Below are positions 9,305-58,250 of a stretch of 64,000 nt of DNA, piece by piece. Below the pieces are notes generated by a model, which did no database searches, was not told the DNA's origin, and was given only the letters and a program-made list of their open reading frames with translations. The translations under genes and the position numbers were made by a program. Each line of letters opens with the position of its first letter. The stretch's first letter is position 1. The stretch covers positions 29,531,160-29,595,159 of the forward strand of contig OZ024927.1 of NCBI GenBank assembly GCA_964017235.1, in the 5' to 3' direction. The DNA comes from Sabellastarte sp. h YS-2021. Its lineage: Eukaryota; Annelida; Polychaeta; Sabellida; Sabellidae.

Positions 9305-12052
9305 ATGAAGAAGATAATATTGTTAGTGATGTTCCTTGGGTTGTGTCAGTGTCAAACCCTTCAGTACAGCATATTTGAGGAGGGGGAAGCGATTCAGGTG
9401 GTGGCAAATCTGAAAAATGATGCACAGCTTTCCCCAGATGCTTCAAGTGATTATGTATTCAGTTTGCGGTATTTTTCAGGGAATTACAAACTCTTTGAAA
9501 TAGACAGTGCTACCGGGATACTACAGACAAGTCAGAGCATTGACAGGGAAGAAATTTGTCCCTATACCAACCCCTGTAAGATTGAATTAGATATCACTGT
9601 CCGTCCAGTAAGCGATCTGCAAATTATCAAAGTCTCTGTGGAAATTCTTGATGTCAATGACCATGCACCTACTTTCCCACAGAAAACTGTCACTCGCTCC
9701 ATATCTGAGGATATTGTAGAGGGAATCACTTTTTCTCTGCCATCTGCAGAAGACCCAGATGCAGGTCAAAATAGTATCCAACGTTATACAATCGAGTCTT
9801 TGTATGGTCCAACCAATACACACTTTGGTCTGCAGATGGTCAGAAATCCAGATGGAACCAAGGATATCAGCCTGCAAGTTTTAACTCACTTGGATCGTGA
9901 AGAACAATCTGCTTATTCCTTTATCATCACAGCCTATGATGAGGGTCATCCTGAAAAATCTGGAACTATGACTGTGGAGATCAATATCCTCGATTCCAAT
10001 GACAACAATCCAGTCTTTGACCAGCCCACCTACCAAGTTGAAGTGTATGAAAATATACCCATTGGCTCTACCATTACTACAGTTCATGCTTTTGATCCAG
10101 ACTCAGGGAAAAATGGTCAGGTGGTTTACAGCTTTTCAGCCCACACAGTGTCTCAATATGGCAATGTTTTTGGCATCAACAGTACCTCGGGTGTCATCTT
10201 TGTGAAAGGTGAGATTGACTTTGAAGTAGAAAATATTTATCATTTAACTATTACAGCGAGTGACTTGGGTCCAAATTCAAGACCAGCTTTTAGCAAAGTA
10301 GTTATCAGTGTGCGAGATCTAAATGATCATGCACCGGAAATCAGCATCAACACTTTGACAAGCAGTGGCTTTGCTGAAGTCAGTGAAAATGAAGACAAAG
10401 GTGCTTTTGTGTCGCATCTTTCGGTCGTGGATCCAGACCAAGGAGAGGCAGGACAGATTCTCTGCCAGATAGATGAGATGCACCAAAGTTTGTTTGAATT
10501 GCAGAAAATTTCAGATTCATTTGAATTCAAGGTTGTGACTAAAGTGACCTTTGATCGAGAGGAGCTGGACACATATCATTTCAAAATTATTTGCTCGGAT
10601 AAAGGTTTACAGCCTATGACATCAGTAAAAGAGGTGACTCTGCATGTGTTAGATAAAAATGACCAAGATCCAATATTCCCCCAGGAAAAGTACTATGCAA
10701 CTTTACAAGAGAATAATACAGCCAATGCCTTTGTAACTAAGATAGTAGCAAGTGATATTGATATAGGGCCAAATGGCCAAATCAGTTACAGTCTTAAAGC
10801 AGTGAATAGTAAATATGACAACTTAATCAGAATCGATCCCATTTCAGGTGCAATAACAACAAATACAGTGTTTGACTTTGAACAGAAAAGTAATTACGAA
10901 TATATCATAACTGCAAGGGACCATGGCAGTCCAAGTCGTTCTGCTGTGGCTTTATTAAACTTCACAATTATAGATATGAATGATGAAGCTCCCCAGTTCA
11001 CCGAGAAGTCTTACAGTTTTACCATAGAGGAAAACCAGCCCTCTGGGGCCATTGTTGGCCATATAAATGCCACAGACAGAGATGCATATCCCTTCAATAA
11101 AATATCGTTCTTCATTGATGCCTCCTCCCAAGGACATAGGGACTTTGAGATTACAGAATCTGGCGAGATCTATGCCCGCCATTCTTTAGACAGGGAGAAA
11201 GTAGGCATGTACAATTTACTTGTTGTGGCTCACAATGAGCTCTATGCCAATACCAACAGTAAAGTTAATGTAAAAGTGACTGTAACTGACGTGAATGACA
11301 ACGCCCCTCACATCTACTTTCCAAGTCCTGGCAACAACACTGTCAAAGTGTCGACCCAGGCCCCAGTAGGTCACATCATTACTATGATTAATGCCACTGA
11401 TGCCGATATGGGCAGTAATGGGAAGCTTCTCTTCTCAATTTCCATGGGCAATGAAGATGGTAAGCTCAGAATTGACAACAGCACTGGGGTCATTTATATC
11501 AGTGAATCACTGACTGCAATCAACCGCAAAGTTTACAGATTGATGGTTAAAGTCCAGGACTGCGGCCACCCTGTAAAGAAAGCACAAACTACCTTGGAAG
11601 TCATCATTGACAAGAGTGTTGTGTTTATGCCAGAGACTAACCAGCCGGCTGGTTTAGCTAACATTGACAGTATTATGCTTCCTTTGGGAATTGTTGTGGG
11701 CATCATAATCCTCCTTATGGTCATTATTTTAGCCATTCTCATCATTAGACACCGCAATCATACCACTCACCAAAGGATGGTACCCAAATCTCAGAAATAC
11801 AACTGCCGATTAGAAGCCAACAAAACCCTGATTAACGCTCCTCCAATCAAACGGGAAGACAGCCACACATATAGGGATGACTGTGTGAAAGGGGGCTTTG
11901 GGGAGGGGTGCTTTGGGGACACTGAGGACTGTAAACAGCGAGATACTCAACACCACCAAATGATGATTGATTTGCACCATTCTGATCACTGCCCAATGCA
12001 AGGAGGTGGGGTAATGCCATTCTTAGAGAGCGAGCTACACTCACAAACCAAG
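9305..12052 (+). CDS. protocadherin, exon A: signal peptide, seven cadherin repeats, membrane helix, proximal tail
   Basis: Calcium-dependent cell-adhesion receptor of the plasma membrane. The ATG at 9305 has A at -3 and begins a signal peptide (residues 1 to about 16, hydrophobic ILLVMFLGL). Seven EC repeats follow, delimited by xNDxxP linkers at about residues 117, 231, 339, 451, 558 and 663. EC1 has the protocadherin-type disulfide loop after DREE (CPYTNPC). DRE motifs are present in EC1, EC2, EC4 and EC6. EC3 and EC5 have DFE, and EC7 has neither. DPDxG-type calcium motifs open EC2 to EC5 and, as DADMGSNG, EC7. A transmembrane helix spans about residues 794-814, followed by about 100 cytoplasmic residues. 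Encoding the whole ectodomain in one exon is usual for protocadherins, and seven repeats match vertebrate delta1 protocadherins (PCDH1/7/9/11). The exon ends at AAG|GTAATG in phase 0 after 916 codons. Exact orthology is not resolved. Confidence 0.96.
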
Positions 12053-12139
12053 GTAATGAGCATGTCTACATTTCTACTACTGTTGACTCTCTATGTAACT
12101 AGAACGTCTGATATCTACCACAAAGTTAGGATCCGGTGA
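12053..12139 (+). other. intron-retention extension of exon A
   Basis: If the donor at 12053 is not used, the frame stays open for 28 more codons to a TGA ending at 12139. It adds a short hydrophobic run (STFLLLLTLYV) and a basic end. This would give a truncated tail isoform. I regard it as intron unless RNA shows otherwise, because the phase-0 donor fits the downstream exons exactly. Confidence 0.3.
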
Positions 12140-30134: not shown

Positions 30135-30288
30135 ATGCCTGATGTGGTGAACCTGTCCCATGCTGAGGTGGACTCTGAGTGCTCCGGAGCAGACAGTGGA
30201 AAAGGCACCAGTGAGGAGGGAGACTGGTTACAGTCCACACATTCCAGTCCAAACTCAGATATACTGGATGTACAGGATAATCCAAAAA
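30135..30288 (+). CDS. protocadherin, exon B (cytoplasmic tail)
   Basis: A 154-base internal exon bounded by TTACAG|ATG and AAAAA|GTAAG. It enters in phase 0, matching the end of exon A, and leaves in phase 1, matching exon C: the last A plus AG from exon C makes Lys968. It encodes residues 917-967 of the tail, an acidic Ser/Gly-rich segment containing ADSGKGTSEEGDW and HSSPNSDILDVQDNPK. Lophotrochozoan protocadherin tails often carry this DSGKG-SEEG type of sequence (from memory of the family). The 3' part has a near-copy at 33892-33940 and a decayed one at 34365-34425. A CR1 LINE begins only 17 bases after the donor, close enough to affect splicing. Confidence 0.9.
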
Positions 30289-30298
30289 GTAAGAAGTC

Positions 30299-30305
30299 AT
30301 AGTAT
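30299..30305 (+). repeat. 5' target-site duplication of the CR1 insertion
   Basis: ATAGTAT here and at 33823-33829 bracket the LINE exactly at its apparent ends. Seven bases is short, but it fits the boundary with the duplicated leader sequence on one side and the 3' ATTAG repeats on the other. Confidence 0.55.
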
Positions 30306-30530
30306 TTTAACTCTATCTTTTGTATATTATGATCATGGGTTCCAGTGCTTGTTAACAGTTTATTTTTACACAGTTCAGGTTTCATAGCTTTTTCCCCTTA
30401 TCAACTGACATATCCTAGTTATTATTTTATGGTTTTATGTTCCAGTGGCGGTTTTAACTCTATCTTTTGAATATTGTGATCATGGGTTCCAGTGCTTTTT
30501 AACAGTTTATTTTTCGCACAGTTCAGGTTT
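30305..30530 (+). repeat. two-copy tandem repeat in the CR1 5' leader
   Basis: About 77 bases (TTTTAACTCTATCTTTTG through CAGTTCAGGTTT) recur 147-148 bases downstream with few changes. Repeated 5' units are known in some LINE promoters, so these may be promoter monomers of this element. Confidence 0.75.
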
Positions 30531-30569
30531 TCTATTTTTGTTTCTGGACTGGGTAGTGTTTTCTTGGCC

Positions 30570-33500
30570 ATGCTAGTTGTGAAAGCCATACTAGTGATAT
30601 GTTTCCTGTGTGTCGGTTTCTCATGTAACTGGCTGAATGCTGATAGGAGCCAGAATTGTGAAAAGATTGACAGGAGTATCCCTTCTATTTTTCGGCTTCC
30701 TGTTTTGGTGCGTAAATATTGTTACATTGGCGATACAAAACAGGTTCCTGCACAACTGAGATTTAAAAACCTTCTACTACTCCTTTTGTTGTGTGGTGAT
30801 GTTGCTTCAAACCCGGGCCCCACCAATTTTGGATTTGTCAACTGTAGATCCATTCGAAATAAAGGCCCTCTCCTGCACGACCTCATAAAATGCAGCGACT
30901 TGGATATCCTGGGTTTGGCTGAGACTCATATTAGACCAAATGATACTGACGGCCTCCTGAATTCTCTCACTCCAGTTGATTATAATTTCATCCAAAAACC
31001 AAGGTGTACTGGCCTGGGCGGTGGTGTCGGTTTTTTGTGTAGAAAAATCTTTTCTCCCAGTATAGTCTCTTCACCAGTTTTTAGGTCATTTGAAAATATC
31101 ATACTTTCTTTTAAGTCCGATCACAATAGCTTTGTTGCTGCTTGTGTGTACCGTCCTCCAGGTTCTTGTACTACTCAGTTTCTGGAAGATTTTCTGGCTC
31201 TTTCTGGGTTTCTGTCCTCGACTGGTTCCAGATTCATCATTTGCGGTGACATAAATGTCCATCTGGATGTTGAGTGTGGCGATAGGTCCAGGTTTAATGA
31301 CATCCTTCAGTGTTGTGGTTTGGTTCAAAGTGTTAGTGGCCCGACTCATTTACTGGGGCACACTCTGGATGTTTTGATATCTCCTTGTGACTCGGATTTT
31401 GTCCGCAATGTTAGTGTTGGAGACTTCATTTCTGACCATGCTGCCATAAGATGCCAACTTGATTTCTCCCGCCCACCTACCAGTATCGACAAATGGGTCT
31501 CTTATCGTCGGTATCACAGGATTGATATCGACCAGTTCCACAATGACCTCAGTAATATACCGTTTGTACGGTCCCCTAAAGGTACTGCTGCAGAACTGTA
31601 TGATCAGTACATAACTGGTGTAACAATGGTACTCGACAAGCATGCTCCTATCATCTCACGCAAGGCAAAACAGCAGTCAGATGAGTGGTTGTCTGATTCG
31701 TATCGCTTGGCTCGATCTCTTAGGCGGCAATTTGAACGGATGTGGAGGAAACATAAGTCAGAGTTGAACAGATCAAGGCTCCGCAGGCAAATTGCCTGGT
31801 GCAATCGACTGGCTAACAAAGAAAAGGGTTCATACTACACTAATCTCATAACTGCAAACAGTGGTGACCCCAAGAAGCTATGGCAGTCATTAAGGAAGGT
31901 GTTGCATCGTACCTCTGAGACTGTCCTGCCTGCTCATAGCTCAGATAAAAGCCTTGCGGACATGTTTGCTTCTTTTTTCTCCAATAAAATAAGCAAAATC
32001 AGGGACACCTTTCCTACTTCTAGCTCTTTCAATGATGTACCTGACTCAGTCCCTCCTGCTTTCAATGCCTTTACACCTGTCACTGAAGACGAGGTCCATA
32101 AGTGTATCTGTGAATCTCCCACTAAATCTTGCTCGCTAGACCCTATACCAACATTCCTCCTTAAGGATTGTCTTGATATCCTCCTCCCTTCTATTACCAA
32201 GTTGGTAAATTTCTCTCTCATTGAAGGATCTTTCCCAAATTCTTTCAAACAGGCGGTTGTCACCCCCCTCATAAAAAAGGCTTCCCTTCCCAGAGACGAC
32301 CTTAAGAATTATCGCCCAGTGTCTGGTCTTTGTTTCTTGTCAAAGTTGGTGGAGCGAGTCGTGGCCAGGCAGCTGACGTCACACATCAATAGCAACAAGC
32401 TGGACAATCCTCATCAGTCAGCATACAAGCCAGGTCATTCCACAGAAACTGCTTTATTGTCCATAAAAAACGAGGTTCATCTCTCTCTGGCTCGCGGCGA
32501 ACCCACAGCTCTAGTACTTCTTGACCTATCAGCCGCATTCGACACTATAGACCATAATATTCTCATTGGCTACCTTAAATCCTGGTTTGGTCTTGGTGGA
32601 ACAGTCCTAAGGTGGTTTGTTTCCTACTTAAGAAATCGATGCCAGGCCATCAAGATAGGCTCTACACTATCTGAATTAAGTAATCTCATCTATGGCATTC
32701 CACAAGGTTCTGTCCTGGGTCCATTGTTGTTTTCACTCTATACAACTCCACTTAGTAAAATTATTAGCCTCCACCCGCATATTAAATTCCATTTTTATGC
32801 CGATGACACTCAGTTATACATCCATCTCTCCCATAAGAATGCTCATTCGGCTCTCGCCAAGCTAAATGCATGCCTTCATGATGTCCAAGAGTGGATGTCT
32901 CTCAGCAAATTGAAGCTCAACCCTGAAAAAACTGAATTTATTGTCTTTGGTTCTAAGGCTCAACGTCAGAAGATTTCCTCTCATTTTCCTGTTAGCATTC
33001 TTGGTAGCCTTCTTCATCCGGTTGATTCTGTCAGAAATCTAGGTGTGTGGTTTGATGCAGATTTTTCATTCTCCGAGCATATCAAGAGGACTTGCAAAGC
33101 GTGCTTTCTTCAGATGCGCGACCTCCGTAGAATTAGAAAGCATCTTACTCCTGATGTTGCAGTCCTTGCTGCAAATGCCTTGGTCAGTAGTCGCCTGGAC
33201 TATTGTAACTCTCTGTTCAGAGGTTTGTCCGGTTTCAATCAGTACAAATTGCAAAGTATTCAGAACACCCTTGCTCGTATTGTTACAAATCACAGAAAGT
33301 ATGCTCATGTCACACCCATCTTAAAGAAACTCCACTGGTTGCCTGTTAAGTACCGATGTATTTTCAAAACTGCAACACTTGTGTATAAATTCTTGCATAG
33401 TGGCTCTCCTTCCTATTTTGGACCGTTCCTGTCTCCCAGTAGTTGTCCCTATAGTACTAGGCGTAGTCACCCAGATCATCAATACCTTACAGTTCCTCCT

Positions 33501-33668
33501 TTTCATTCATCAGTCTTTAAGTCAACCAAACATTTTGGCCTGAGTTTTGCCTTTGATGCTCCTAAGATCTGGAATGAACTCCCTCAAGATGTCCGCTGTG
33601 CAACATCAGTTGCCTCCTTCAGAAGCAAGCTTAAAACTTACCTGTTTGCAAAAGCCTACCCACCATAG
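30570..33668 (+). CDS. CR1 LINE polyprotein: leader, 2A-like motif, AP endonuclease, reverse transcriptase
   Basis: 1032 residues from the first ATG; the frame is also open a little upstream, without an ATG. Residues 1 to about 24 form a signal-like hydrophobic segment (VVKAILVICFLCVGF). A second hydrophobic run (seven Leu) precedes CGDVASNPGP at residues 75-84, a 2A-like ribosome-skipping motif. The endonuclease follows: Asn in VNCRS, Glu118 in LAETH, GDINVH with Asp227, and the terminal SDH with His290. The reverse transcriptase has SAAFD (about 654), GIPQGS (about 709) and YADD (743-746). The C-terminal part, ending FAKAYPP, is conserved with the relic at 35690-35909. It makes DNA from its RNA at a nicked target. 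No gag-like first frame was seen. No stop or frameshift occurs, unusual among the decayed elements here. Confidence 0.93.
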   Translation: MLVVKAILVICFLCVGFSCNWLNADRSQNCEKIDRSIPSIFRLPVLVRKYCYIGDTKQVPAQLRFKNLLLLLLLCGDVASNPGPTNFGFVNCRSIRNKGPLLHDLIKCSDLDILGLAETHIRPNDTDGLLNSLTPVDYNFIQKPRCTGLGGGVGFLCRKIFSPSIVSSPVFRSFENIILSFKSDHNSFVAACVYRPPGSCTTQFLEDFLALSGFLSSTGSRFIICGDINVHLDVECGDRSRFNDILQCCGLVQSVSGPTHLLGHTLDVLISPCDSDFVRNVSVGDFISDHAAIRCQLDFSRPPTSIDKWVSYRRYHRIDIDQFHNDLSNIPFVRSPKGTAAELYDQYITGVTMVLDKHAPIISRKAKQQSDEWLSDSYRLARSLRRQFERMWRKHKSELNRSRLRRQIAWCNRLANKEKGSYYTNLITANSGDPKKLWQSLRKVLHRTSETVLPAHSSDKSLADMFASFFSNKISKIRDTFPTSSSFNDVPDSVPPAFNAFTPVTEDEVHKCICESPTKSCSLDPIPTFLLKDCLDILLPSITKLVNFSLIEGSFPNSFKQAVVTPLIKKASLPRDDLKNYRPVSGLCFLSKLVERVVARQLTSHINSNKLDNPHQSAYKPGHSTETALLSIKNEVHLSLARGEPTALVLLDLSAAFDTIDHNILIGYLKSWFGLGGTVLRWFVSYLRNRCQAIKIGSTLSELSNLIYGIPQGSVLGPLLFSLYTTPLSKIISLHPHIKFHFYADDTQLYIHLSHKNAHSALAKLNACLHDVQEWMSLSKLKLNPEKTEFIVFGSKAQRQKISSHFPVSILGSLLHPVDSVRNLGVWFDADFSFSEHIKRTCKACFLQMRDLRRIRKHLTPDVAVLAANALVSSRLDYCNSLFRGLSGFNQYKLQSIQNTLARIVTNHRKYAHVTPILKKLHWLPVKYRCIFKTATLVYKFLHSGSPSYFGPFLSPSSCPYSTRRSHPDHQYLTVPPFHSSVFKSTKHFGLSFAFDAPKIWNELPQDVRCATSVASFRSKLKTYLFAKAYPP
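30792..30821 (+). other. 2A-like ribosome-skipping motif in the CR1 frame
   Basis: CGDVASNPGP matches the 2A signature D(V/I)ExNPGP except Ala for Glu, and follows a run of seven leucines. 2A-like motifs at the N terminus of CR1-type elements are known in sea urchins, molluscs and other invertebrates. If active, translation would release an 83-residue leader peptide and restart at the final Pro to make endonuclease-RT. The Glu to Ala change may weaken it. Confidence 0.7.
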
Positions 33669-33822
33669 CCTCCCCCGTCACATCTGTGTCTCTTTGGTAC
33701 GACCTGGCTATTGTCCCTTGATTAACGCTAATTGCCTTTGCTTATGGTTAGATGCGCCTTAGAGTCCATCAGTGATGGAGATTAAGCGCTATAAAAGTCC
33801 ACATTAGATTAGATTAGATGAG

Positions 33823-33829
33823 ATAGTAT
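33823..33829 (+). repeat. 3' target-site duplication of the CR1 insertion
   Basis: ATAGTAT, matching 30299-30305, immediately after the last ATTAG-like unit of the LINE. Confidence 0.55.
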
Positions 33830-33854
33830 GTTGTATATTAGTTATTTATATACA

Positions 33855-33940
33855 TGCCAAGTGAAGAGTGATATATTAGATGCAGTCCAGTCACTCCAGT
33901 CCAAACTCAGAATTACTGGATCAATTAGATGATCCAGAAA
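33855..33940 (+). pseudogene. partial duplicate of protocadherin exon B
   Basis: Bases 33892-33940 align without gaps to 30240-30288 at 39 of 49 positions, and the first eight intron bases (GTAAGAAG) are identical. The peptide HSSPNSELLDQLDDPE parallels HSSPNSDILDVQDNPK of exon B. Upstream, AAGTGAAGAG still resembles the part of exon B encoding SEE, but a TGA and a small frame change break it. A short usable exon is possible from AG|ATG at 33878-33879: 61 bases, phase 0 in and phase 1 out, as required to replace exon B. Its pyrimidine tract is poor. Most likely a decaying tandem exon copy, originally only about 80 bases beyond exon B before the LINE landed between them. Confidence 0.7.
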
Positions 33941-34364
33941 GTAAGAAGGGAGGTTATATCCAAACCCTCACCCATGGGTAGCGTTACAAACATTCTGGAG
34001 ACCCAATCCAGATCCAGACCATGGCTGAGTTGAACCAAGCCACAGGTAGAGCCCATTTTGTGTGAAAATATATCCCAGATCTGATGTATTATTTTCGAGT
34101 TGTGCCTGTAATTGGGCTGTTTGACTTCAGCGAGTGGGGGTGTACGATTGAAGTAATAAAACAATCCACAATCCAGGGTATTGTTTGATGCATTCCCGAT
34201 ATTTTCCTGATAGATTCGAGATTGGCGTTGCCATTGTCTCAAGGTTTACGATTTATCAAAAAATGGAACAGCCCCCTAAATAGACAGACACAACTACAGT
34301 AATTAAGTACCTAATATAATTATGCTATAAATGTCACTTTTCAATGTGTTACTGTTTTGTATGT

Positions 34365-34425
34365 CACTCCTCAAGCAATAGTTCTAATAGTTCAGGTACA
34401 GTAGATTAAGACAATGATCCAAAAT
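34365..34425 (+). pseudogene. decayed third copy of the exon B 3' part
   Basis: Translates as HSSSNSSNSSGTVD, a stop (TAA, one change from CAA), then DNDPK, ending in phase 1 at AAAT|GTAAGT. Order and ending parallel exon B (LDVQDNPK) and its second copy (LDQLDDPE). There is no usable AG acceptor just upstream, so it is read as a dead exon. Similarity is clear at the protein level and weak at the DNA level. Confidence 0.5.
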
Positions 34426-35519
34426 GTAAGTCAAAACAATATTTTCATAATGGGAAAGTCTTTAACAGACACAATTCAGTTCTAACTGGAATACATAAGA
34501 AACTTGTTCAAAAAGTCCAAAAGTCATTTCTCTCCAAAAGGTGTTCTTGTAAAGTATCCTACTCATTCCATCTACTTCTATCTCAATTTGATGAATATAT
34601 TCATGTTCGGGGCCTGTTACAACTGATTTTATATTAATAACTTATTTGGTATGACCCTGCATTTTTGTTTCAACTTCAGACTTATTTTGTATCACTGACT
34701 TATGTTGTAGTATATTACTTGGCTGACTTATTTTGAATCAGAAATTCACATATTACATCACAAATTAGTGTGCAAAATTTTGACCAATACAAAATAAGTT
34801 GTTACATGGACAAATAGTTTTCTATCAAGTATTACTTGTTATGTAGTACTTGATATATTGTGTATCCACTATTGAATTATTTTGTATCACTGACTTGTTT
34901 TATAGTGAAATTGCCTTATTTTGTAAAATAGCCTGGCCTTATTACATTGAAAATAGTTTTGGCATTTATTGTATCCTTAATGAGATGCAAAATTTGGTTT
35001 TACATTCCAAATGACAACTGAATTCACTTATATGTGTGTAAGCCTTGAATTTCCTGTCCAGAAAAAAATAGCAAAAAATTAGTTCCACAGTTTCATGCTT
35101 AAGTGTCATAATTACTGGACCTTTAGCTTGATGTTTTCATTTTTCAATTATCCTAACACATGAAGTTCATTTCCTAAAGATTAATTTTGACAAATGGCTG
35201 TGCATGCCATTTCAAAGATTAAAAAAGTACAGTTTATCTCCATTCAAATCACATTCATTTAAGAAGAATTTGTTGTAAATAATTTTCAGGTTTCATGTCT
35301 TTTTAAGGCCTTTTTAAAAGAAATTTGACCGGTTATCTCAAGATCAAGGTCATTGAGAAGTACACATGATTACCTAGTCCCTTCACATTCACATTAATAT
35401 GACTGAGTAGAATGGTACTGGTCAAAAGGCCAAACATAGGCTTCTTATAACCATTTCAGCAGCTAAAATCATGTCAGAACAGGCTCTCAGTAAATTCCAC
35501 ATGGTGTCTTCAGCTGGAA
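34426..35519. other. intron 2, no gene
   Basis: AT-rich intron with several scattered ATTTTGTATCACTGACTTA-like phrases between about 34680 and 34920. No coding feature. Confidence 0.5.
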
Positions 35520-35689: not shown

Positions 35690-35909
35690 GTACAAAAATC
35701 ATAGAAGTGAATCTGATGATGTGTTGCTTGAAGTCCCGCACTTTGCCCCAATATTTAAATCGACAAAGCATTTTGGCCTCAGCTTTGCATATGATGCCCC
35801 ACGGATTTGGAATGATCTGCCTGATGATGTACACTCAGCCAAGTCTCTCTCTTCATTCAGACAGAAGTTAAAAATCTATCTCTGTGCAAAAGCTTACCCA
35901 CCCTAGTTT
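35690..35909 (+). pseudogene. 5'-truncated CR1 LINE, last ~70 codons
   Basis: Encodes VPHFAPIFKSTKHFGLSFAY and onward to AKAYPP and a TAG, closely matching the C terminus of the intact CR1 frame. The 3' UTR of this copy resumes at 37262 after an inserted repeat. Confidence 0.85.
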
Positions 35910-35910
35910 T

Positions 35911-37232
35911 TACCCCACAGCCCTTAAGGGCTGTCGGGGTATTTTTTTTCACCCATGGTGTTCGGATGGGCGGACGGGCGGGCAAGCTGCGGGAAAAAGT
36001 TTGTCCAGGCTGTATCTCAGAAACCGTAAGGTGTAGGAAGTTGATACTTGGTAGGGACATTGGTTAGGGGGTGTAGGTGTGCAACGTCATGGTGTGACCT
36101 TGATTTGACCTTTGACCTTGCCATAGTGACCTTGACCTACAAAATGTTGTCAGGGCTATATCTCGGAAACCATAAGGTGTAGGAAGTTGAGGCTTGGTAG
36201 GGACATTGGTTATTGGGTGTAGGTGTGCAACATTATGGTGTGACCTTGATTTGACCTTTGATCTTGCCATAGTGACCTTGACCTATAAAATCTTTTCCGG
36301 GCTATATCTCGGAAACCGTAAGGTGTAGGAAGTTGATACTTGGCAGGGACATTAGTTAGGGGGTGTAGGTGTGCACTGTCATGGTGTGACCTTGATTTAA
36401 CCTTTGATGTTGGCATAGTGATCTTGACTTATAAAATCTTGTCCAGGCTATATCTCGGAAACCATAAGGTGTAGGAAGTTGATACTTGGTAGGGACATTG
36501 GTTAGGGGTGTATGTGTGCAGCGTCATGGTTTAACCTTGATTTGATCATTGACCTTGCCATAGTGACCTTGACCTATAAAATCTTGTTTGGGCTGTATCT
36601 CAGAAACCGTAAGGTGTAATAAGTTGATACTTTGTACGGACATTGGTTAAGGTATCTAGGTATGCAATGTCATGATGTGACCTTGATTTGACCTTTGACC
36701 TTGTCATAGTGACCATGAGTTTTGCAAATCTTGTCTGGGTTATTTCTTTGATTCCATAAGGTGTAGAAGGTTGACACTTGGTAGGGACATTAGAGGGTGT
36801 AGGTGTGCATCATGGTTTGACCTTTTTGCTCTGCCAAAGTTTTGTGTACCTGCCATATTTGAGACATCTTTCTCTTATGACAAAGATATATGGATTGCTG
36901 CAACTGATTGTTATATGCACTTTTACATAATTGTGCTTTTTCCATTGACAGCTTTTCTCCAATTAATAAATTTTATAGCCTTATAGTTTTAGTTTGCTGA
37001 TTAATACTGTCATCTTGCTATTGAATTGCCTTGTTTTAGTACTTTATCTTTACATACATTTTCTTTCTCTTAGATGTTATTTTCTCTATTTAAACATTAT
37101 TTGGAGCTTTTTATAACTGACACTGCTCTGAAAATATCCAGATCTTTTAGTGTTTCACCACTTCTATATCTCATGGTGTTGAAAACTACTTCCCCAGGCT
37201 CTGGGGTACAGGCATCTCTGATGCTATTTTCT
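35911..37232 (+). mobile_element. dispersed repeat family with ~145-bp internal units, copy A
   Basis: Begins with a hairpin (TACCCCACAGCCCTTAAGGG, arms meeting at TTAA, 35911-35941), followed by about six tandem units of 144-147 bases. Each contains TATCTCGGAAACC, TAAGGTGTAGGAAGTTGA and TGTGACCTTGATTTGACC. A unique AT-rich tail continues to about 37232. It sits inside the 3' UTR of a truncated CR1. Copies B (47917-48854) and C (57392-58250, reversed) share hairpin, units and tail order. No protein is encoded. The hairpin end recalls rolling-circle elements, but no Helitron end signature was confirmed, so the class is open. Confidence 0.8.
36106..36118 (-). promoter_or_regulatory. perfect DR1 nuclear-receptor site inside the repeat (representative)
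   Basis: TGACCTTTGACCT is the reverse complement of AGGTCAAAGGTCA, the ideal HNF4/RXR-type direct repeat with one-base spacing. Identical sites occur at 36689-36701, 48177-48189, 48322-48334, 57918-57930 and 58056-58068, all in copies of the same element. Monomer TGACCTTGA (NR5A/ERR-type) sites alternate with them. Binding is inference from the motif. Confidence 0.5.
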
Positions 37233-38370: not shown

Positions 38371-39236
38371 AGCCAACGACAACGGACACCTACCGTGTTC
38401 AATCAAACAGCCGCCCAGCAAATCAACATTATACCAACAATAAAAACTCGAAAGCAGCCAAACAGCTATACAACACATCTCCTTCCCTCAGTACTGGTAT
38501 AGACATTCAAAACGCCAAGAACAAGGGAATGTATAACCATAGTTACACTCCTTTGACTACCTTTAGTAGTTTGCCACACTCGGTGGAAATACAACAGACA
38601 AAGCTAGATAATAGTGCTCACCAGCAGGGGTTGCTGTGGGGAAACAGGTCTGAAAGCTTTGGCAACATAGACAATGGCAAAGGACAGTATCAGGCAATGA
38701 GAACTGCTGGTAGTCAGAAGAGTAACGGAGGAAATATGTGCCGTGAGTACATATCTAGTCACAACAAAGGTCCATTCGAAGAACAGTTAGTGTATTTTCC
38801 AGTGAATCAAGGTGGTGAACAGCTGAATAAAAACACTCCTCAAAATGGGAATAACCAGCTAAGTCGGACTGGTAACCAGAATGAATCCTGGATGGGGAGG
38901 GAAGGCAGTATTCGAGCAACACAAGATGGTCGCCGCCACCTGTTTGGCAACCATCCCTTTTCTGATGACCCCTTACATGAAGATGATAAAAATTTGACCC
39001 TAAGTGGACAGAAAAGTGCATTCCGGGCTCCGGGAAGTGTAAATAACACATTGAACAGTAAGAAGAAAGAAGTGAGGTTTGCCGATAAGTGTCTGGAACT
39101 CCATGGACGCTGTAATAGTGATGGGGAAGAGGCAACAGAGTCTGTGGATGACTTGAGTGAAGATGGAGTGAGTATTACATCAGGAAGCTACGTTCTTGTC
39201 TCCGAGAATGGATTAACAGGAGATACCTTTGTGTGA
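38371..39236 (+). CDS. protocadherin, exon C (distal cytoplasmic tail and stop)
   Basis: Acceptor AG at 38369-38370; the first two bases complete Lys968 with the last base of exon B, and the frame then runs to TGA at 39234-39236 (Val1255). The segment is polar, Asn/Ser/Gln-rich and probably disordered. Near the end is KKEVRF (residues 1199-1204), a fit to the PP1-docking RVxF consensus. Vertebrate delta1 protocadherins carry a PP1-binding motif, RRVTF, in conserved motif 3. An acidic stretch follows (GEEATESVDDLSED), and the protein ends in DTFV, a class I PDZ-ligand pattern (Thr at -2, Val at 0). Thus this exon probably carries the signalling and scaffold contacts. The motif readings are direct; the partners are inferred. 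Confidence 0.93.
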
Positions 39237-41190
39237 TTAGCTAGCTATTGTCAACAGAAAATACCATCATATGATTGGCTACAAGTTACTTTGCACAGGA
39301 AATACCTATTTGATTCACTGGAAGTAACTGTTAACAAGAGATATATTTGTATGACAGGTGGGAAGCGATGTCCTTGACTCACTCAGTATGTTAGTTAGCA
39401 GGACATACTTTCAGTGTGATTTGCTGATCACTACTCTGAACAGCAGATAACTTTGTGAGATTGACTAGAATGTTTTAAAGTAAAGAGTTCTGTTAGAAGA
39501 ATACTTGTACTTACTAAACTGGGATATGTTGCAAGTAAAATTTGACCAGAACCTTATATGTGAAAGGGATTTAGCTGCTGAATTTAAGCTAGACAGTGTT
39601 CATGATATAGGTTTTATCTACAGTGTGGAGTCATGGCATTCCATTAGAAAATATGAATATCATACTAAGTATAATTCAAAATGAAGAAACATAATATGTA
39701 GTGTTTTGGTCAATGATTGCTTGACTCTAACCTCTGTTGTTTCAAATTTAGCTCAAGACAGCCTGCAGGAAACAACTGGTAGCTCTTCACAAGGTGACTA
39801 CAGTTAAAGAAAACAAATAACCTAAATTTGACTGTACAACTTTTGCAAATAATCTAAAATAACATTGGTCTTTATTGTACAACTTTTGCAAATAAGTTTA
39901 AATAACATTGATCTTTATTGGTAAAGTGTGGTTGAATAATTTTGAACACAAGTGTGTGGCATCAATCACTGATGCTTGTATCTAGAAGCTGTAGGTTGGT
40001 CTTTCTACTCCCATTTGTGGTCTGGTCATTCATAATTTTCAAACGCTAGCCCACCAGGCATCAATTTGAAATATCTATTTGAAAGAGTGTTTGGACAGTG
40101 TAATCTAGGTGTTATGTAGCTGGGATTTATATGTATCTAGGTGATACTTTAGAACTTTACAGATCTCTGGGCTCCCACTTTACTAAAATGAAGAGGTCAG
40201 GTCAAATGTGAAGCAAAAAATAGTTTTTGGATCAGCATTCTTAAAACAATTGATCAGATTTTTAAATTATATTTTGGATTAAATTTTGGATCCAGACAGG
40301 TCAAAAATGGCCATCAGAAGATGTATCCAAGAAGATAATGAATATTTTAGTCAGTCCGTATACAGAGGCAGAAGGTATTTTTGTGGACAGATGCACTCTC
40401 TCGATTTGCTAAGTGATAAAAAACTCTGTCTGAAAGTTTTGACAGTTAAAAAAATATGTGATCTTTTTCAGCTCAAGAGATCTCTCCTTTGTGAATAACT
40501 ATTTGATCTGCTTGATTAAAACTTTTTTTTGTCAAACTTAACCTGATCTTGATGTAATTTAAACCTGTTTTTGTGAATACCAGCTCTCAATTGAAACACT
40601 AATTGACATGTAAATTGTACTTGTGGCAAAACCAGAAAACAAACGTCAAAATACCAATACCATAAACACATTCCTATATACAGGTGAAATTTAAGTAGTG
40701 GAAGATGTATTTTGAATGACACACAAAGACATAATCATTAATATTGGTAGATTCCCATGTGTATTGGTTTGTTTACACAGTCCAGACCAAATTAAGTGAA
40801 ACTCTGTGGAGTATTATTGCCATTAAAATGATCAGTGTCTTTACAGGGTCTTGTCCACTGAAATATAATCCTGTTATCTGGAAAACCTGGTTATATGGAA
40901 GTACTTTTCGTGGTCTTTGAGTTTTAACCATAGAGGGTTCAAGGTATTACTAGTATTTCTATTGGTATATTCTATCGGCTGTTGAACCCACAAGGGGTTT
41001 CATTGTTCGTTATATCTTTGCATGCAAGACTTATGAGCCATATCGACTTTCAGACTTATCATGTTTTCATTGTTTGTCATAAATTTAATGTAATTATTGT
41101 ATATTACAGTAATTTATCATGCTGAAGCTTATTAATTTGCCATGTTTTTTTTTTATCTTCATATCATTGCATAAAATCACTTTTGTGCCA
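39237..41190 (+). other. 3' UTR and downstream flank of the protocadherin
   Basis: No gene. Part is probably 3' UTR, but no AATAAA occurs in the first 1.5 kb; ATTAAA variants are at 40278-40283 and 40515-40520. A 43-base tandem duplication lies at 39833-39919. The polyadenylation site is undetermined. Confidence 0.45.
39833..39919. repeat. tandem duplication, 43-base unit x2
   Basis: TGTACAACTTTTGCAAATAA and the following ~23 bases are repeated head to tail with few changes. It probably lies in the protocadherin 3' UTR. Confidence 0.8.
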
Positions 41191-47916: not shown

Positions 47917-48854
47917 TACCCCACAGCCCTTGGCCTGTATCTCGGAAACCATAAGGTGTAGGAAGTTGATACGTGGTAGGAACATTGGTTACAGGGTGTA
48001 GGTGTGCAACATCATGGTGTGACTTTGATTTCACATTTGACCTTGCCGTAGTGACCTTGACCTATAAAATCTTGTCCGGGCTATATCTCGGAAACCAAAA
48101 GGTGTAGGAAGTTGATACTTGGTTGGGACATTGGTTAGGGGGTATAGGTGTGCAACGTCATAGTGTGATTTTGATTTGACCTTTGACCTTGCTGTAGTGA
48201 CCTTGACCTATAAAATCTTGTCCGGGCTGTATCTCGGAAACCATAAGGTGTAAGAGTTGATATTTGGTAGAGAAATTGGTTAGGCGGTGTAGGTTTGCAA
48301 CATAATGGCGTGACCTTGATTTGACCTTTGACCTTGCCGTAGTAACCTTGACCTCTAAAATCTTGACTGGGGTATATCTCTGAAACCATAAGGTGTAGGA
48401 AGTTAATACTTAGTAGGGACATTGCTTAGGAATTGTAAGTGTGCAACATCATGGTGTGATCTTGATTTGACCTTGTCATAATGACCACTAGTTTTAAAAT
48501 CTTGTCTCGGCTATTTCTTGCATTCTGTAAGGTGTAGAAAGTTGACACTTGGTAGGGGTGTAGGTGTTCGTCATGGTATGACCTCTAACTTTGGCTCTGC
48601 CAAATTTTGAGTTTACTGATTAATGCTGGGCATCTTTCTATTGAAATGTCTTGTTTTAATACTTTATCTGTACATACATTTTCTTTCTCTGAGACATTAT
48701 TTTCTCTAGTTAAACATTAGTTGGACCTTTTTTAACTGACACTGCTCTGAAAGTATCCCAATCTTTCTACTGTTTCACTACTTCTATATCGCACGGTGTT
48801 AAAAACTATTTTCCCAGAGTGTGGAGTATGGGCATCTCTGCTATTTTTTTTTTT
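47917..48854 (+). mobile_element. ~145-bp-unit dispersed repeat, copy B
   Basis: Starts with TACCCCACAGCCCT but the hairpin is cut off and joins directly to the first unit. About four units follow, then the same tail as copy A (TTTACATACATTTTCTTTCTC-like and TTTAACTGACACTGCTCTGA). Two perfect DR1 motifs are inside (48177 and 48322). Confidence 0.85.
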
Positions 48855-57391: not shown

Positions 57392-58250
57392 AAAAAATAG
57401 TATCTGAGATGCCCACACCCCACAGCACAGGGAAACAATTTTTGACACCATAACTTATAGAAGAAGTGAAACAGAAAAAGACTTTCAGGGCAAACAGTGT
57501 CAGTTATAAAAAGATCCAAATAATGTTTAAGGAAAGAAAAGAACGTCTACCAGAGCTACCAGATAAAGTATGAAAACAAGACTATTCAATATCAAGATGA
57601 CAGCATTGATCAGCTAACTAAAAATTATGAAGCTGTAAGATTTATTAATTGAAGTACAGCTGTCAATGGAAATAGCACAATTAAGTAAAGGTACATGCAA
57701 TAATAAGTTACAGCAATCCACATATCTATGTGATAAGAGAAATATGTTTCAAATGTGGCAGGTGAACACACTTTGTCAGAGTAAAGGTTAAAGGTCACAC
57801 CATGATTTAGCATACTTACACTCCAACCAATGACCCATCCAAAAATCAACTACCTTAATCTTAAAGTTTCTGAGATATGACTCAGACAAAATTTTAATGA
57901 TCAAGGTCACTACAGCAAGGTCAAAGGTCAAATCAATTTCATATTATGATGATGACACACATACACTCCTCAACCAATATTCCTACCAGGTATCAACTTC
58001 TACACCTTACAGCTTCTGAGATATAGACTGGATAAAGGTCAAGGTCATTACAGCAAGGTCAAAGGTCAAATCAGGGTCATATCATGATGTTGCACACCTA
58101 CATCCCCTAACCAATGCCCCTATCAAGTATCAACTTCCTACACTTTACTGTTTCTGAGATTTAACTTGGACAACCTTTTTCCCGCCGCCTGCCCATCCAG
58201 ACGCCATAGGTGAAAACAATACCCGCACAGCCCTTAAAGGCTGTGGGGTA
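57392..58250 (-). mobile_element. ~145-bp-unit dispersed repeat, copy C (reversed)
   Basis: Reverse orientation of copies A and B. The hairpin end (CACAGCCCTTAAAGGCTGTG) is at 58225-58246, then about three units with TGAGATAT and AAGGTCAAAGGTCAAATCA, then the AT-rich tail ending TATCTGAGATGCCCAC. Two perfect DR1 motifs (57918 and 58056). Confidence 0.85.

Follow-up and report, generated by a model that had tools for sequence, protein, structure and literature searches.

Does the protocadherin gene at this locus offer a choice of cytoplasmic tail exons, or does a single tail exon lie beside remnants of itself? The window, the whole 64,000-nucleotide stretch of Sabellastarte sp. DNA that was analysed, was originally predicted to hold a tandem series of tail exons, of which one (exon B) is live and two (copies 2 and 3) are decaying, split by a LINE (Table 1). 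One sure partial copy of exon B is indeed present, but the second is doubtful, and neither is a whole exon. We are fairly confident that exon B is live, that copy 2 is a dead partial duplicate which likely could never be spliced, that copy 3 is at most a possible relic, and that the LINE arrived later. The contents of the intron are most likely ordinary genomic debris rather than working alternative exons.

Table 1 Coordinates of the exons, candidate copies and associated elements in the window
Feature	Position	Strand	Description
Exon A	9305–12052	+	Seven cadherin repeats, six DxNDxxP linkers; ends in phase 0
Exon B	30135–30288	+	Tail exon of 154 bases that runs from phase 0 to phase 1; acceptor TTACAG and donor GTAAGAAG
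Direct repeats of ~79 bases	30305–30530	+	Pair 94% identical, 147 bases apart
Non-LTR retrotransposon (LINE)	30306–33822	+	Open frame 30480–33668; ends approximate, taken from a 7-base direct repeat
Copy 2	33858–33948	+	Decayed partial duplicate of 30208–30296, taking in the 3' half of exon B and 8 bases of the intron
TAG	33877–33879	+	Immediately precedes the proposed 61-base exon, in the reading frame of the copy; its AG would be that of the proposed acceptor
Copy 3	34365–34425	+	Possible older remnant of the 3' end of exon B; interrupted by an in-frame stop and not preceded by AG
Exon C	38371–39236	+	Coding part, through the stop codon at 39234–39236

The protocadherin gene and its tail exon

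Read by eye, exon A encodes a signal peptide, a transmembrane segment and the proximal cytoplasmic part, and Pfam recognizes Cadherin in seven stretches (E 5e-100) as well as Cadherin_2. Among the best 60 of 177 matches in the PDB, the highest total score belongs to a CELSR1 chain, followed by protocadherin chains, and the protocadherins matched include protocadherin-10, -19, -18, -17 and -1 together with clustered ones. The seven-repeat, protocadherin-like ectodomain with one transmembrane segment fits a delta-type protein, for which six or seven repeats are expected, and the PDB matches are not specific to the delta group. The label "delta-type" comes from the ectodomain, because the peptides of exons B and C have zero Pfam matches at E values up to 1, and the ectodomain does not clearly separate delta from clustered protocadherins. 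In the excerpt of PMC7339444, vertebrate delta protocadherins have seven cadherin repeats and a separately encoded cytoplasmic tail, as here; the same excerpt reports tail isoforms in brain, whereas at our locus an extra exon is hypothetical and the tail exons match no Pfam family.

Exon B is the tail exon that encodes the segment ADSGKGTSEEG. Joined in the order A-B-C, the three exons give an open frame of 1255 amino acids. Joining A directly to C shifts the frame and reaches a stop after 959 residues, and thus exon B, or something of equal phase, is required. These reading-frame data agree with exon B being a live exon. A comparison of its peptide with a prokaryotic contig collection gave no relative (204 pattern matches, 0 confirmed), which is expected because the collection is prokaryotic.

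In a check for cytoplasmic motifs, exon C was found to contain KEVRF, which lies within KKKEVRFAD (encoded at 39060–39086) and bears a loose likeness to RVxF. RVxF is a phosphatase-docking pattern. According to the excerpt of PMC6339937, RRVTF is present in the tail of vertebrate delta-1 protocadherins, and the authors state there that evidence for CM1-3 is absent in Octopus vulgaris. At the other end of the intron, reading on from exon A through 12053–12136 adds 28 residues (VMSMSTFLLLLTLYVTRTSDIYHKVRIR) before a stop, and a short-tail isoform could possibly arise by intron retention after exon A.

Homology and splicing potential of copy 2

We recounted the match between 33892–33940 and 30240–30288 and obtained the 39 identical bases out of 49 that the original prediction had given. 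With its flanks, the ungapped match extends to 54 of 66 bases (30231–30296 against 33883–33948), and a single gap lengthens it to 30208–30296 against 33858–33948. As would be the case for neighbouring members of a tandem exon array, the two sequences are clearly homologous: copy 2 scores 250 against exon B, whereas 2000 dinucleotide shuffles average 62 and never exceed 129. The next best site for exon B in the window reaches 118 in a 400-base scan and 130, on the reverse strand, in a 121-base scan. The donors of exon B and copy 2 are identical over 8 bases, both reading GTAAGAAG, again as predicted. These comparisons support copy 2 as a true duplicate of the 3' part of exon B. The peptide changes between them had been described as conservative, and the D/E, I/L and N/D replacements are indeed present, but T/S, V/Q, Q/L and K/E were missing from that list.

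The duplicate does not seem to be complete. Copy 2 would cover the last 81 of the 154 bases of exon B along with 8 intron bases. The match appears to run 22 bases upstream of 33880, with a 2-base gap that causes a frameshift and with stops. With the alignment anchored to the main match, 2 of 300 shuffles equal this upstream extension (before 33883). The extension is short, covering 23 bases of exon B, and it is not striking when aligned freely, with 103 of 2000 shuffles as good. If the extension is right, the proposed exon start at 33880 would lie inside former exon sequence, behind a frameshift and a stop. The first half of exon B (30135–30207) has no counterpart that we could detect in three neighbouring intervals, where the scores were 34, 41 and 53; as controls, chance matches of this half elsewhere in the window score 78–82, and the antisense match over exon B itself 94. 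Copy 2 thus differs from an array member of similar length, at 61 bases against 154 and with homology that begins inside exon B at 30208, and it looks like an inner fragment of the exon rather than the whole.

We also searched both strands of the entire window with five queries, namely exon B, each of its two halves (3' and 5') and the two copies, using alignments that were either free or anchored at the donor. Besides copy 2, no clear further copy of exon B was found on either strand. A larger tandem unit was considered and rejected: the intron following exon B, with the LINE taken out, scores 36 against the sequence following copy 2, where the shuffle mean is 31.9 and 213 of 1000 shuffles are as good.

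Copy 2 had been proposed as a 61-base exon that could still be used. In this form it has the right phase, and A-copy 2-C gives an open frame of 1224 amino acids; of the two copies, copy 2 is the only one with both the phase and the open frame of an array member. Its acceptor is far less convincing, even should the upstream extension be wrong. By splice scores built on vertebrate-like frequencies rather than on ones trained on this genome, 82.0% of the 3740 AGs in the window score as well as or better than that at 33879, compared with 15.8% for exon B and 3.9% for exon C. The 22 positions upstream contain 8 pyrimidines, against 15 for exon B and 16 for exon C, and three further AGs lie within 20 bases upstream. 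The 21 AGs listed at 33751–33910 include 8 that fit the phase of the donor, two of which (33879 and 33885) give an open exon; 47.2% of the 3740 AGs score as well as or better than 33885. By consensus score on these vertebrate-like frequencies, the donors are good and the acceptor of copy 2 is weak, and copy 2 falls short of the usable acceptor and donor that each member of an array would have. An AG does precede 33880, but as an exon start this position is doubtful, with a poor acceptor, an in-frame TAG and homology that seems to continue upstream.

The open frame of copy 2 is weak evidence for its use, because simulations at 20% divergence also leave a 20-codon stretch of exon B open in 66% of runs. 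Over 19 codons, copy 2 and exon B differ at codon positions 1, 2 and 3 by 5, 3 and 4 bases, and the 7 amino-acid differences compare with 7.8 on average when 12 substitutions are simulated (P(7 or fewer) = 0.41; 3451 of 5000 runs kept, stop-free only). The dN/dS estimate of 0.58 (8.5 and 3.5 changes) comes from too few changes to be parted from 1, and the sites in all three comparisons are too few to exclude weak constraint. Altogether the changes appear to fit neutral drift and give no signal of coding constraint. The idea that copy 2 is still usable as a 61-base exon is not supported, since neither the acceptor nor the first half of exon B is seen in duplicate, the in-phase open acceptors score weakly and a constraint signal is lacking.

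Copy 3, the retrotransposon and the order of events

Copy 3 is more difficult to place. It is GT, not AG, that precedes 34365, and none of the 8 AGs listed as acceptors for copy 3 gives an in-phase open exon. Its score with exon B is reached by 3 of 2000 local shuffles and its score with copy 2 by 57 of 2000, and in free alignment to exon B six of 4235 background windows do as well. When the 429 donor-like sites of both strands are ranked, only exon B and copy 2 come ahead of copy 3, which scores 79; the site after it scores 57. When donor quality is ignored (1206 prefiltered GT sites), a GT at 34522 scores higher than copy 3, at 84, and others come near it with 77, 73 and 73. A search with copy 2 lists nine sites, none of them copy 3, while in a search with copy 3 exon B ranks sixth, copy 3 itself counted. 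The letters and the stop of the predicted third copy are thus present, but the mixed shuffle and background tests do not establish its relationship to exon B; in our judgement a true relic is possible, though doubtful.

The LINE frame of 1062 codons matches reverse transcriptase (E 5.5e-33) and endonuclease (E 2.8e-7). The 7-base repeat ATAGTAT at 30299–30305 and 33823–33829 is a candidate target-site duplication, and a nearby 10-base AT-rich match (30320 and 33831) leaves the exact ends of the element uncertain. A LINE does lie between exon B and copy 2, as predicted, and its virtual removal at ATAGTAT leaves 67 bases from the end of exon B to 33880. When random substitutions were introduced, the frame remained open in 9 of 300 runs at 3% divergence and in 0 of 300 at 5%. 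The frame in the window is open and the copies differ by 18%, and we therefore infer that the LINE is younger than the copies.

The element has some further features. The ~79-base direct repeats probably lie in its 5' UTR. At its N-terminus (30570–30821), a hydrophobic stretch is followed by GDVASNPGP, which resembles 2A-like recoding signals. The 2A-like consensus has E where this sequence has A. As described in the excerpt of PMC4981915, such signals can double as N-terminal signal sequences. A fragment of the 3' end of a similar LINE, 74% identical, lies in the same intron at 35754–35906.

These events could be ordered as follows. Exon B would be an ordinary protocadherin exon encoding part of the cytoplasmic tail. 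About 90 bases, made up of its 3' half and the 8 intron bases that follow, would have been copied by a small duplication to a site a few dozen bases downstream. The resulting copy 2 would have come without the acceptor and the first 73 exon bases, and for that reason it was probably never spliceable. It would have drifted neutrally, with 12 of 66 bases changed and with a frameshift and stops in its upstream part, and a non-LTR retrotransposon would later have entered between it and exon B. Copy 3 might be an older relic of similar origin, or might reflect chance.

Alternative readings and known systems

The points that speak against a dead, partial copy 2 include its open frame in the right phase, its 8-base-identical donor, a dN/dS estimate below 1, though not separable from neutral, and the shortness of the upstream extension. 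Phase, frame and donor would also be expected if copy 2 worked as an alternative exon, 61 (or 55) bases long, that replaces exon B and gives a shorter tail lacking ADSGKGTSEEG, and alternative splicing does vary the tails of vertebrate delta protocadherins in the excerpt of PMC7339444. However, the proposed exon would depend on a weak acceptor whose AG ends an in-frame TAG, which follows a purine-rich stretch and has three other AGs close upstream, and the constraint signal is absent; we regard such an exon as very unlikely. The fuller proposal, that copy 2 is included in place of exon B in some cells, removing the ADSGKG segment, and is what survives of an earlier tail-exon set of this non-clustered protocadherin, we consider highly improbable.

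Other readings concern the origin of the copies. If the gene once had an array of mutually exclusive tail exons, each of them complete, and copies 2 and 3 are its decayed remains, this might explain why two resemblances lie on the same strand of one intron, each at a good donor and in equal phase. Both copies, however, lack a good acceptor and show no trace of the first half of exon B, and copy 3 does not rise clearly over background and goes unlisted when copy 2 is the query, which leaves this origin unlikely. The LINE insertion itself could instead have produced the end of exon B and copy 2 as one long target-site duplication, as the exon B side of the match stops at 30296, immediately ahead of the LINE, and copy 2 starts at 33858, about 35 bases past its apparent end. 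Yet a divergence of 12 in 66 bases sits poorly with a 1062-codon frame that is still open, given that no simulated frame survived 5% divergence, and the 7-base repeat sits closer to the LINE. A short repeat, such as one of 7 bases, is the more usual target-site duplication. We therefore find a long duplication quite unlikely and continue to favour a partial duplicate of exon B that preceded the LINE. The likelihoods attached to the preferred reading and its rivals are judgements, which overlap slightly and sum to slightly more than one.

In the mutually exclusive exons of Dscam and of arthropod N-cadherin (PMC2655722), an exon is repeated beside its source within one gene, as here, and the pair of copy 2 and exon B also shares donor and phase, like tandem exon duplications such as Dscam. 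Unlike the members of those arrays, copy 2 looks partial and has neither a good acceptor nor a constraint signal. Decay has a parallel in Drosophila Gr39a, where, in the excerpt of PMC2204066, exons were duplicated within the gene and some turned into pseudo-exons, much as copy 2 may have done; the Gr39a exons are large alternative exons followed across species, whereas here we have a single fragment from a single genome. It is common for exons to be duplicated close to their source, and many such duplicates lack annotation, according to the excerpt of PMC9013439, which cites a 2002 study with tandemly duplicated exons in ~10% of animal genes and more than 2,000 unannotated candidates, and which gives 4,027 intronic targets in human genes, at least some of which may be expressed. 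Among the matches listed from titles and abstract openings in the open-licence literature, no paper dealt with duplicated tail exons in invertebrate delta protocadherins. If the copies were used, they would give the animal a further route, besides gene number, by which to vary protocadherin signalling. As it stands, the locus would be a small case in which part of an exon was duplicated, the copy decayed and a retrotransposon inserted later. It warns that an open frame, even when joined to a good donor, is a weak basis for calling an alternative exon.

The window contains no RNA family at gathering score, and it holds several further repeats. Tandem arrays of a related ~140–146-base unit are present at 36001–36824, 47938–48474 and 57901–58160, the third of them reversed. 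The arrays have flanks in common (for example 36987–37220 and 48605–48840), and thus probably belong to one mobile-element family with a tandem-repeat core. Past the stop codon of exon C, at 39833–39920, a 43-base unit occurs in two tandem copies with 91% matches.
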